A stretch of DNA of 11,590 bases, from assembly GCA_017535125.1 (NCBI GenBank), contig JAFXUS010000071.1, positions 1-11,590 of the forward strand, read 5' to 3'. Shown here piece by piece: positions 986-10,776 of the stretch. Under the pieces are notes generated by a model, which searched no databases, was not told the origin of the DNA, and saw only the letters and a program-made list of their open reading frames with translations. Position numbers and translations under genes: made by a program. Source of the DNA: Bacteroidales bacterium (GTDB lineage Bacteria; Bacteroidota; Bacteroidia; Bacteroidales; UBA932). How positions within the stretch are numbered: the stretch's first letter is position 1; each line of letters opens with the position of its first letter.

Positions 986-1774
986 TTATTTCAAATCAAA
1001 GTTGTCGGCGTCTTCGAGGACGGGGAACTTGCGGTGGTAGGAGACCAGGTGGGCGAGGTCGATCTCGCCGCAGGCGAAACCTTCCTGATTGTCCTCGACC
1101 TGCGCGAGCGTCTCGCCGTAGGGGCTGATGAGGGCGGTGCCGCCGTCGTACTCGCACGCGGGGTCGCTTCCGATACGGTTGACGGCCCCGACATAGCAGG
1201 CGTTCTCGATGGCGCGGGCACGGGAAAGCGTGTCCCACGCGAAACGCCGCACGCCGGGCCAGCTGGCCACGAACAGGATGGCGTCGTAGTCGTCGCGGTT
1301 GCGCAGCCACACGGGGAAGCGCAGGTCGTAGCAGACGGCCAGCAGGAAACGCACGCCCATGTATTTGACCACGACGCGCTCGGTTCCGGCACGGAAGCGT
1401 TCGCCTTCTCCGCCGTAGCCGAAAAGATGGCGCTTGTCGTACTGCTCGTAGCTCCCGTCCGGCCGCACGAAGTAGAAGCGGTTGACGCAGGGGGCCTTTT
1501 CGTCATTCGCCGACACCGATCGGCGAATCTCCAACGCTATCGATCCCGCGACGGCCGCATGCAGCTCCGCCGCCTTGCGCTGCATCCACGCCAGACCCGC
1601 GGAGGGCTCGTGCTCGACGGTGGCGTCGGGCAGCGTGGCGAAACCGGTGGTGAACATCTCGGGGAGGACGTAGAGCTCGGCCTGCGGGGCGCGGGCGAGA
1701 AGCTCGTCCAGCTTCGCGCAGTTGGCCTGCGGGTCACCCCAGGTTATATTGAATTGAATCAGACAGATTTTCAT
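986..1774 (-). CDS. Omega-amidase, YafV/Nit2-type carbon-nitrogen hydrolase
   Basis: This 262-residue nitrilase-superfamily hydrolase probably deamidates 2-oxoglutaramate and/or 2-oxosuccinamate (glutamine/asparagine transaminase by-products) in the cytoplasm. The Glu-Lys-Cys triad is visible: E39 in VLPEMF, K114 in YDKRHLF and C148 in AVCYDLRFP. DLRFPVW, RARAIENACYVGAVNRIG and the C-terminal FPVLEDADNF closely resemble E. coli YafV (256 aa), recalled from memory. The start at MKICLIQFN fits the family N-terminus. No clear Shine-Dalgarno precedes it. Oddly, between AGSIAL and VNRF there are 15 residues where YafV has about 6. Residues 82-91 (EIRRSVSAND) are encoded exactly by a palindromic repeat at 1502-1532, described separately. 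It is the last gene of the minus-strand run, 59 nt after the transporter. Its link to sugar-acid catabolism is unclear and it may simply ride along as an amide-repair enzyme. Confidence 0.88.
   Translation of the reverse strand: MKICLIQFNITWGDPQANCAKLDELLARAPQAELYVLPEMFTTGFATLPDATVEHEPSAGLAWMQRKAAELHAAVAGSIALEIRRSVSANDEKAPCVNRFYFVRPDGSYEQYDKRHLFGYGGEGERFRAGTERVVVKYMGVRFLLAVCYDLRFPVWLRNRDDYDAILFVASWPGVRRFAWDTLSRARAIENACYVGAVNRIGSDPACEYDGGTALISPYGETLAQVEDNQEGFACGEIDLAHLVSYHRKFPVLEDADNFDLK
1502..1532 (-). repeat. Palindromic REP-like element, copy A, in frame inside the omega-amidase gene
   Basis: On the minus (coding) strand the element reads GGAG, a 9-nt arm ATTCGCCGA, a 6-nt loop TCGGTG, the complementary arm TCGGCGAAT, then GAC. 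The arms are at 1505-1513 and 1520-1528 on the plus strand and pair perfectly. The flanks GGAG/GAC and the AT-ended arms are shared with copies at 1788 and 2519, although the stem sequence differs. It encodes residues 82-91 of the hydrolase without breaking the frame, at a place where relatives appear about nine residues shorter. Read as an inserted, still translated element (inference). Confidence 0.75.
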
Positions 1775-1787
1775 ATTCTTTGTTTAA

Positions 1788-1816
1788 AGATTCCGGGTCA
1801 AGCCCGGAATGACTAT
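1788..1816 (+). repeat. Palindromic REP-like element, copy B, intergenic
   Basis: These 29 bp are identical to 2521-2549. The palindrome has arms ATTCCGGG (1790-1797) and CCCGGAAT (1803-1810) around a TCAAG loop, followed by GAC. The leading tetranucleotide is AAAG rather than GGAG, so the left edge has decayed or differs. It fills most of the 59-nt gap between the transporter stop and the omega-amidase start, about 14 nt upstream of the latter. A second CGGAATGAC at about 1822-1830 may be a remnant of another copy. Confidence 0.8.
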
Positions 1817-1833
1817 GACGGGCGGAATGACGG

Positions 1834-3300
1834 CTAGAGTTCAATCGGTTTGTACTTCGGAACCAGGGTCTTCATGATGATCCAGGCGAGGAGGTAGGCG
1901 ATGCCGCAGTAGCAGAAGATGATGAAATAGCCGGCCGGTTTGCCCTCGAAACCGAGGAAGCGGAAGGCGGAGCCGGCCCCTTCCGCATAGGTGAAGAGGT
2001 TGCCCGCGACCTTCTGGATGATCATCGAGCCGATGCCGCCCGCCGTCGTGCCGATGCCGGTGATGGAGGCGATGGTGCTCTTCGGGAACATGTCCCCGAT
2101 GGTGGAGTAGAGGTTGGCGCTCCAGGCCTGGTGCCCCGCGCCGGCGAGGCCGATCAGGATGGCCGGCCACCAGGCGGAGTTGAGGTTGATGCCCAGCGGC
2201 TGCGCGAAGAGCGCGGCGATGGGGAAGAAGGCGAAGATGAGCATGGCGAGCATGCGGCCCGCGTACGGGTTCATGCCCTTTTTCTCCACGAAGATCTTGG
2301 GCAGGTAGCCGCCCACGATGGAGACCACGGTCACGATGGCGTAGAGCGTGAAAATCAGCGCCTGGCCCAGGCCGGAGGTGGCGGGGGCGCCGAACTGGTT
2401 GCTGAAATAGGAAGGCGCCCAGAACAGGAAGAACCACCACACGCCGTCGGTGAAGAACTTGCCGGTGATGAAGGCCCAGGTCTGCTTGTACTTCAGGCAC
2501 TGGATGAACGGAATGGAAGGAGATTCCGGGTCAAGCCCGGAATGACTATTAGAAGAGACCGGCGAATCTTCCTCATCCTGATGAATATACGCCAGTTCCG
2601 CCTCGTTGACGCGCGCGCTCTTCTCGGGCTTCTCGTACATGAAGGCCCAGAAGAACATCCAGATGAAACCCAGGCCGCCGATGATGATGAAGGCCCATTC
2701 CCAGCCGAGCTTGACGGCGAGGGGCGGAATCAGCAGCGGCGCGGCCAGCGCGCCCACGGATGCGCCTGCGTTGAAGATGGAGGTCGCGAAAGCGCGGTCC
2801 TTCTTCGGGAAATACTCGGCCGTCACCTTGATGGCGGCCGGGAAGTTGCCGGACTCGCCGAGGGCGAGGATGCCGCGGCAGAGCAGGAACAGGTAAACGG
2901 ACGTCGTCGAAACGGCCAGCGCGACGTTGCTGCCCGCCTCGATGGCGCGCAATGCGGCCACGCTGCCGAGTCCCGTGAAGAGGGCCGTAGCCCAGCCGCA
3001 GGCGGCGTGCATGCAGGCGCCGAGCGACCAGACGCCGATGGCGATCAGGTAGCCCTTCTTGGTGCCCATCCAGTCCACGAACTTGCCCGCGAAGAGGCAG
3101 CAGATCGCGTAGAAGATGGAGAAGAAGGAGGTGATGGTGCCGTAGTTGGCGTCCGTCCAGTGGAATTCCGGCTTGATGAATTCTTCGTAGGTCAGGGAAA
3201 GGACCTGGCGGTCGAGGTAGTTGACGGTCGTCGCCACGAAGAGCAGCGAGCACAGCCACCAGCGCCAGTTGGTCATCAGTTTCTGTTGTGTGGTCGACAT
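1834..3300 (-). CDS. exuT: MFS hexuronate transporter, ExuT-like (anion:cation symporter family)
   Basis: This 488-residue inner-membrane permease probably imports galacturonate/glucuronate or a related sugar acid by proton symport. Family marks are NYLDRQVLSL in TM1 (about 27-36), the loop FAGKFVDWMGTKKG (70-83), LALGESGNFPAAIK (145-158) and about twelve hydrophobic segments in two halves. ExuT members are usually about 430-470 residues. Here the central cytoplasmic loop, between the sixth helix ending near 221 and the seventh starting near 275, is lengthened by NSHSGLDPESP (251-261). That peptide is encoded by a palindromic repeat. The gene starts 1 nt after the eda stop and follows kdgK, so context supports uptake for the KDG pathway. 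The substrate itself cannot be read from the sequence, and other ACS-family sugar acids remain possible. Confidence 0.88.
   Translation of the reverse strand: MSTTQQKLMTNWRWWLCSLLFVATTVNYLDRQVLSLTYEEFIKPEFHWTDANYGTITSFFSIFYAICCLFAGKFVDWMGTKKGYLIAIGVWSLGACMHAACGWATALFTGLGSVAALRAIEAGSNVALAVSTTSVYLFLLCRGILALGESGNFPAAIKVTAEYFPKKDRAFATSIFNAGASVGALAAPLLIPPLAVKLGWEWAFIIIGGLGFIWMFFWAFMYEKPEKSARVNEAELAYIHQDEEDSPVSSNSHSGLDPESPSIPFIQCLKYKQTWAFITGKFFTDGVWWFFLFWAPSYFSNQFGAPATSGLGQALIFTLYAIVTVVSIVGGYLPKIFVEKKGMNPYAGRMLAMLIFAFFPIAALFAQPLGINLNSAWWPAILIGLAGAGHQAWSANLYSTIGDMFPKSTIASITGIGTTAGGIGSMIIQKVAGNLFTYAEGAGSAFRFLGFEGKPAGYFIIFCYCGIAYLLAWIIMKTLVPKYKPIEL
2519..2549 (+). repeat. Palindromic REP-like element, copy C, in frame inside the MFS transporter gene
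   Basis: On the plus strand it reads GGAG (2519-2522), arm ATTCCGGG (2523-2530), loop TCAAG, arm CCCGGAAT (2536-2543), then GAC. Positions 2521-2549 are identical to copy B at 1788-1816. The transporter is read from the other strand, where the element gives NSHSGLDPESP in the central cytoplasmic loop. Its orientation relative to its host gene is opposite to that of copy A, so a different reading frame is translated. Confidence 0.85.
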
Positions 3301-9774: not shown

Positions 9775-10776
9775 ATGACATTCACCGCAAAAACTCTAAA
9801 ACGACTTGCCGCAGACCTGTCCCTGGACATCCCTTATGTCAGAGGGGTCGTCCGCCCGGTCAGGAACTGCTGGCACATCTCCTCCGACGGGGGCTATGCC
9901 TTTGCCCTCTTCGAAACCGAGGAGGACTTCAAAGCCGCTATGAACCGTCTCGCTCTACTTGCCCTAAGGAGCGGCGTCATCGTCCTGGCTTTCTGTATAA
10001 TGGACAACCATGTCCACTTCGTGCTGTATGGTCTGAAGGAAGCCTGCGAGGCATTCGTCAAGGAGTTCCTCAACCTGACTGCACACTACAACTCACGCAA
10101 GCATTGCAACAGGAGAGGAGCTTCTTCAATACCCCTGAGTTGCCAGCGGATCGAGGACGAAGAATACCTTCTCAACGCCATCTGCTACGATATTCGGAAT
10201 CCTCCCGTGAACGGTCTGAAATACACATTCTATGATTACCCGTGGTCCAGTGGCCCCCTTTATTTCCGCATCGGTTCAAGCTGGGCATCTCCGTTATGGA
10301 AAGCCGGCCTCGAGGACTGCCCCGCAGAGACAAGGGATTTCTTCAGGGTCAGAAGGGCAGGAGAAATGGGTGCTAAGGAACGAAGGAGGATCACCGGCTC
10401 GGATCAGAGGATTCCGGAAGACTGGCTTTTGTTCGACGGCGTGATACTCCCCTCTTCCTACATCCCGGCCGGTATGGTGGAAAAACTGTTCAGGTCACAC
10501 CGGGCATTCAACTTCTTTGCAGGCAGGAGCAAGGAGAAGGAGATGGAGGATATCATGGGCACATGGTCTTCCCTCAGCCTGCAGGATACGGAAATGCGCC
10601 AGCACCGGGACGAAGAGATGGCAGCCCTGTATGGCACGGACAAGGTCCGCAGCCTGAGCATACGGCAGCGGATAGAGGTCGGGAAGATACTCCGAAGGAA
10701 GTACATGACCTCGGTCAAACAAATTGCAAGGGTGGTCTGCATCCCGCCCGAGGAGGCGGAAAGAGCTCTCGACTGA
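9775..10776 (+). CDS. RAYT-type transposase (REP-associated tyrosine transposase, Y1/HUH superfamily)
   Basis: This 333-residue protein belongs to the IS200-like Y1 transposase superfamily, single-strand DNA nucleases that cut and join at hairpins. The HUH motif is H79-V-H81 in CIMDNHVHFVLYG. The probable nucleophile is Y138 in AICYDIRNPPVNGL, matching the Y-x-x-x-N-P segment of RAYTs. The YPWSSG motif at 155-160 is also a RAYT mark. Compact RAYTs are about 150-220 residues; this one has a long C-terminal extension (about 165-333) ending in a helix-turn-helix-like stretch (SLSIRQRIEVGKIL and TSVKQIARVVCIPPEEAERAL). RAYT genes are usually single-copy and domesticated, and associate with REP palindromes rather than forming a standard IS. 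Here hairpin-rich DNA lies just upstream, none downstream. The gene ends 1 nt from the stop of the convergent histidine kinase. It appears intact. Confidence 0.85.
   Translation: MTFTAKTLKRLAADLSLDIPYVRGVVRPVRNCWHISSDGGYAFALFETEEDFKAAMNRLALLALRSGVIVLAFCIMDNHVHFVLYGLKEACEAFVKEFLNLTAHYNSRKHCNRRGASSIPLSCQRIEDEEYLLNAICYDIRNPPVNGLKYTFYDYPWSSGPLYFRIGSSWASPLWKAGLEDCPAETRDFFRVRRAGEMGAKERRRITGSDQRIPEDWLLFDGVILPSSYIPAGMVEKLFRSHRAFNFFAGRSKEKEMEDIMGTWSSLSLQDTEMRQHRDEEMAALYGTDKVRSLSIRQRIEVGKILRRKYMTSVKQIARVVCIPPEEAERALD

Follow-up and report, generated by a model that had tools for sequence, protein, structure and literature searches.

A probable CGTC-tagged REP copy in frame in an omega-amidase-like gene of a Bacteroidales genome, and REP-like DNA in protein loops of its relatives

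GTAG REPs are short repeats of high copy number, often with a RAYT gene close by as their presumed means of mobilization, and the dRS3 repeats of Neisseria have the core ATTCCC...GGGAAT. The CGTC-tagged REPs, in the portions of PMC3733652 (Di Nocera, De Gregorio and Rocco 2013) drawn on here, consist of a CGTC tag, a stem of 8-9 bp opening with A-T pairs, a loop of 4-5 nt and a tail that is mostly CCA, with other loop lengths in some species. By the same account, stem and loop vary within families, and the repeats are found in Bacteroidetes and within genes, with no transposase associated. Those portions also equate the Rickettsia repeats RPE-4 and RPE-6 with CGTC-4 and CGTC-1, and Neisseria dRS3 with CGTC-1, most of the Neisseria copies lying in large clusters. 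Among titles and the first parts of abstracts in open-licence PMC, it was the sole report of coding palindromes in Bacteroidetes that we found; the RepRanger paper, drawn on in part, is PMC12306157.

We describe here an element of this kind within a protein-coding gene. Very probably it is a copy of a CGTC-tagged REP whose family is multi-copy in related genomes, and which has survived as an insertion in a permissive loop of the protein.

REP copies in the window and their class

The window, the whole stretch of DNA analysed, comprises 11,590 nucleotides of contig JAFXUS010000071.1 from a Bacteroidales bacterium. The features discussed below are:

986..1774, minus strand: ORF for an omega-amidase/YafV-like carbon-nitrogen hydrolase, 262 aa (Pfam E 2e-32)
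1501..1532, minus strand: CGTC-tagged REP copy in the amidase ORF, 24-nt hairpin type (GCCGR...TCRGNG); on the plus strand, CGTC tag 1501-1504, arm 1505-1513, loop 1514-1519, arm 1520-1528, CTCC tail 1529-1532
1787..1814, plus strand: second REP copy, with a 21-nt hairpin at 1790-1810, in the spacer between the MFS transporter and the amidase
1822-1833: partial unit GCGGAATGACGG, after the spacer REP copy
1834..3300, minus strand: ORF for an MFS transporter, 488 aa, with a REP in its linker
2519..2546, plus strand: third REP copy, with a 21-nt hairpin at 2523-2543, in frame in the MFS ORF
about 2557-2573: partial unit GACCGGCGAATCTTCC, near the MFS REP copy

On the minus strand, the sequence of 1501-1532 is GGAG-ATTCGCCGA-TCGGTG-TCGGCGAAT-GACG, so that the palindrome which the original prediction had placed in the omega-amidase exists with exactly that sequence and those coordinates. 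Its loop is of the TCRGNG type, which goes with the 24-nt hairpin class, and its in-frame reading, EIRRSVSAND, forms residues 82-91 of the protein. A shuffled window is expected to contain 0.8 inverted repeats whose arms reach 9 bp or more. A bare 9-bp inverted repeat is therefore unremarkable, and the weight of evidence rests on the family.

The element belongs to a class already known, since it shows most of the features by which CGTC-tagged REPs are defined: an unpaired CGTC at 1501-1504, a stem of 9 bp that begins with A-T pairs (ATTCGCCGA/TCGGCGAAT), copies inside genes, and high copy number in relatives, where a single genome can have as many as 84 strict copies. Its loop departs from the class, having 6 nt rather than 4-5, and its tail is CTCC(A), where CCA prevails. 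Rickettsia RPE-4 and RPE-6, likened to it by description and known from another phylum, are also palindromes within protein genes, inserted in frame where orthologues lack the insert. GTAG REPs resemble it as short high-copy palindromes, but the tag here is CGTC, few REPs lie near Y1_Tnp genes and no link of the RAYT sort was seen. Neisseria dRS3 is connected to it through the equation with CGTC-1 in the consulted portions of PMC3733652, again by description. The case of a shared insertion site given in those portions is recB of two Xanthomonas species, whereas here the loops of several proteins are involved, across genomes.

The MFS copy is read as SHSGLDPESP and, relative to its gene, has the orientation opposite to that of the amidase copy; the prediction that two neighbouring genes carry in-frame copies in opposite orientations is thereby borne out. 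The MFS-amidase spacer of the window (1775-1833) and those of four related loci (L005, L011, L013 and L019) carry REPs soon past the MFS stop codon, all in one orientation and with differing stems. In L006, L007 and L008 the MFS stop overlaps the amidase start and there is no REP. Compared with L005 in 150-base steps, window 986-1800 shows the amidase to be 73-91% identical to that of genome G005, while the adjoining MFS and sugar-acid genes are mostly 93-98% identical (range 81-98). This change in identity lies near the spacer REP at 1790-1810, where a recombination boundary might fall.

The REP-filled loop of the amidase

The NCBI model for YafV-type proteins, PRK10438, scores 240.9 bits against the amidase, just short of its cut-off of 249. 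Residues E39, K114 and C148, which we take to be the catalytic triad of the carbon-nitrogen hydrolase family, are invariant across an alignment of 39 sequences and are intact in the REP-bearing protein. An AlphaFold2 model (mean pLDDT 91.9) places the insert between predicted beta strands 74-82 and 96-103, in a beta-hairpin loop of which residues 83-95 are less confident (block means 66 and 79). Aligned with 2e11, the solved hydrolase nearest to it in sequence, the amidase has nine extra residues in this loop. The predicted hairpin agrees with the loop location considered earlier.

Loop lengths were compared in 96 parsed orthologues, a set from which duplicates had been removed and which includes the window and counts one genome twice (L188 comes from the L011 genome); 9 further loci were unparsed. 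Loops of 7 residues occur in 64 orthologues and of 8 in 13, and that of the window has 16; among the parsed values, the loop of L140 is clipped short and the length of 12 for L217 is an artefact. The original prediction had put the excess at about nine residues over E. coli YafV, a figure that holds against the comparators used here, 2e11 and the modal 7-residue loop.

Loop DNA was called REP-like when its score exceeded those of all 300 shuffles, as it did in 9 of the 96 orthologues (window, L001, L141, L140, L139, L142, L143, L145 and L150). L152 and L013 are marginal, each being matched by 1 of the 300 shuffles. The loop is thus short in most parsed orthologues, and several relatives carry differing REP units in it. 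The REP-bearing loops contain several stem families; one loop, that of L143 (G005, also L005), has its REP in the opposite orientation, and some are doubled. When the DNA was read by eye, L150 and L139 were seen to hold two units facing opposite ways, and L004 and L019 an additional half unit. Loops of at least 13 residues that bear no REP likeness occur in L011/L188 (47 residues, of different sequence) and in the distant L030 (21 residues), and the 21-residue loop of L152 has marginal likeness. With these exceptions, no palindrome-free homologues with a loop similar to that of the window were met among the parsed orthologues. As a separate observation, L031 (5001-5972) has in a second amidase loop a tandem array, about 60 residues long (GDDGMVGYNGTAGDD...), in which a REP-like unit comes first.

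The forward copies in the window, L001, L002, L004, L019 and L150 all start at the same GAG codon and differ in stem type, and the REP-free L003 and L006 also carry that codon. This common start may reflect targeting by short homology. A tree of the amidases is compatible with the forward copies having arisen just once; in it, L007 lies inside a supported clade that is otherwise insert-free, and L005 requires a separate event or an inversion.

The family in related genomes and in other proteins

Sixteen genomes, sampled through their relatives of the amidase, were searched with the strict pattern GAGATTC-N7-18-GAATGACG and, as a control, with the reversed pattern. The strict pattern is present in 13 of the 16, copy numbers over the whole set running from 0 to 84, and the reversed pattern in none. 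A chance palindrome is ruled out by these controls, and the family with constant ends and variable stems that had been foreseen is evident in the relatives. Across the genus of G005, 40 of 101 genomes have at least one strict match (reversed control, 0), although among the matches listed a few are unpaired in the interior and probably arose by chance. A looser pattern gives 131 matches in G012, including some that plainly do not pair. In 1.50 Mb pooled from G005, G006 and G012, taken from contigs known to carry copies, ATTC-N11-18-GAATGA occurs in 154 stretches, against 2 for the reversed control; in 131 of the 154, which were selected by their ends alone, pairing extends through all of the next four positions. 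The stem types of this sample include CCGGG, CCCGG, GCCGG, GCCGA and ACCGG, and the commoner hairpin types of the three genomes have 5-nt loops. Of 136 family stretches, 118 have the G that completes the tag, seen as GACG on the opposite strand. Carriage by phages was rejected for the window's 24-nt type, since one degenerate pattern made for that type found 0 exact matches in viral contigs.

The amidase is one of several proteins whose loops hold such DNA. The MFS linker contains REP-like DNA in 5 of 21 loci, including the window, and the loop of AtpG (ATP synthase gamma) in 7 of 14 parsed loci, each in both orientations. For AtpG, 16 loci were given, the count includes the query's own genome, L274 and L280 were unparsed and L270 was parsed with its own anchor. 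Some further loops had low P values yet fell below the score cut (AtpG L275 and L269; MFS L001 and L147). In HrpB, in a family-4 glycosyltransferase (GT4), in a U32 peptidase and in an ECF sigma factor, two or three of the genomes G005, G006 and G012 hold differing units in the same loop. Units that are identical or nearly so, and may have been inherited, occur in G005 and G012 in a DsbD-like protein and in a family-2 glycosyltransferase (GT2). Peptides that are presumably repeat-derived (CHSERSEES, PSTSSG and CHPEPVEGS) occupy the same loops in L147 and L170 (MFS linker) and in L137 and L238 (U32).

In several relatives without a REP the MFS linker is rich in Ala and Glu, and linkers with a REP are just 1 to 4 residues longer than the 15-residue linkers of relatives that lack one. 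In MnmE of G012 the REP peptide replaces a loop of similar length found in seven relatives, for a net gain of about none. Because of these small gains, clean insertion cannot be claimed for every site.

Origin and persistence of the in-gene copies

One alternative is a single old insertion at each site, with the stem later swapped by gene conversion between REP copies. We regard this as rather unlikely, though several observations speak for it: the common GAG start of six forward copies despite their differing stem types, the spacer REPs that share an orientation and differ in stem, the compatibility of the amidase tree with one origin of the forward copies, and the same or nearly the same units in the DsbD-like and GT2 loops of two genomes. 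It is opposed by the reversed copy of L005, by the nesting of L007 among insert-free members of a supported clade, by the two units in each of L150 and L139, and by the occurrence of both orientations in the AtpG and MFS loops.

The original prediction went further, to elements selected for translatability in many frames on both strands, that is, to a protein-coding palindrome family in a strong sense. Genes in the pooled sample were called with a home-made codon scorer, by which 87% of the 1.50 Mb is coding. Just 39 of 136 copies lie within these genes, the rest being at gene edges or outside, so that the repeats are depleted in genes. (The 136 are 138 less a chance hairpin in an acyltransferase that had been counted twice; in the first 787 kb alone, under a looser rule, 11 of 41 copies are in genes.) A Pfam family could be assigned to 31 of 34 scanned REP-bearing genes, one of 35, split over two loci, having been left out of the scan. 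Relative to their genes, 18 copies have the same and 21 the opposite orientation, and several frames are used. The readings contain 33 Arg residues, compared with 63.5 expected under even use of the open frames, a number as low being reached in 1 of 5000 draws. Use of both orientations and several frames, and the avoidance of Arg-rich readings, speak for selected translatability. The scarcity of Arg is, however, attributable to loss of harmful insertions, with selection acting as a filter after insertion, and the codon usage of the chosen frames is nothing special (P 0.33). Of the 6 frames, 4-5 are open in consensus elements, no more than in random hairpins of the same composition, which average 4.5-4.95 (P 0.55-0.86). 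We had expected hairpins of a length indivisible by 3 to be rarer in genes, and this failed: 17 of 38 copies of the 23-nt type lie in genes, a larger share than for the 21-nt type (12 of 54, with the chance hairpin dropped) or the 24-nt type (6 of 37). This part of the prediction is unsupported, and selection for translatability appears very improbable.

It appears equally improbable that transposases of the Y1/RAYT kind move the elements. The window does contain an ORF (9775-10776, plus strand) with weak likeness to Y1/REP-associated tyrosine transposases (Y1_Tnp, E 0.04; REP_Tyr_transpos, E 7e-4, far below the cut-off). It is preceded by a 21-nt inverted repeat (9403-9423/9535-9555), 95% complementary, with its arms 111 nt apart. 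Y1_Tnp genes occur in 14 of the 16 genomes, with 1 to 3 matches regardless of REP copy number, and over 101 genomes the two copy numbers are uncorrelated (rho 0.12, P 0.23). The first 16 Y1_Tnp loci (46.8 kb) held 3 REPs, more than we would have expected from copy number, but two of these share a spacer and neighbour gene in two genomes, and 29 further loci around high-scoring Y1_Tnp genes held just 1 REP in 90 kb (background, 2 in 47 kb around 13 amidase loci). No association of REPs with Y1_Tnp genes, the one transposase family examined, was found, and mobilization by this family was set aside for want of support from either the copy numbers or the locus scans.

Very improbable, too, is a hairpin placed in the gene for its RNA or DNA structure (mRNA stability, or binding of gyrase or another protein). 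In its favour, stem pairing is maintained across types, and in the spacer the copies come after the stop codon of the gene upstream. Against it, the local RNA fold is ordinary, being no better than shuffles (z -0.76; 46 of 200 fold as well), no Rfam family matches the window at gathering scores, and most parsed amidase orthologues lack the hairpin. On the fold and the Rfam result, an RNA function was rejected.

The preferred reading remains insertion of a multi-copy CGTC-tagged REP into a permissive loop. We infer that the repeats would spread as small non-autonomous, selfish DNA, landing widely. Insertions that break genes would be lost; those falling in frame in permissive loops would survive, be translated as an added loop peptide and later decay. 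Most likely the peptide encoded by the REP has no specific function. As a kind, a REP within a protein is ordinary; what is notable is its recurrence across proteins. A broader proposal, which we offer tentatively and hold to be somewhat less likely than its opposite, is that REPs are a standing source of loop evolution in this lineage. Many proteins, ATP synthase gamma included, would have the same loops overwritten again and again by differing units in both orientations, through insertion and replacement or through conversion of one REP by another, with selection at the protein level picking the frame.

Such insertions amount to natural 'linker-scanning' data on which loops of conserved proteins tolerate added residues, and the related REP-rich and REP-free genomes provide material for testing how CGTC REPs move.
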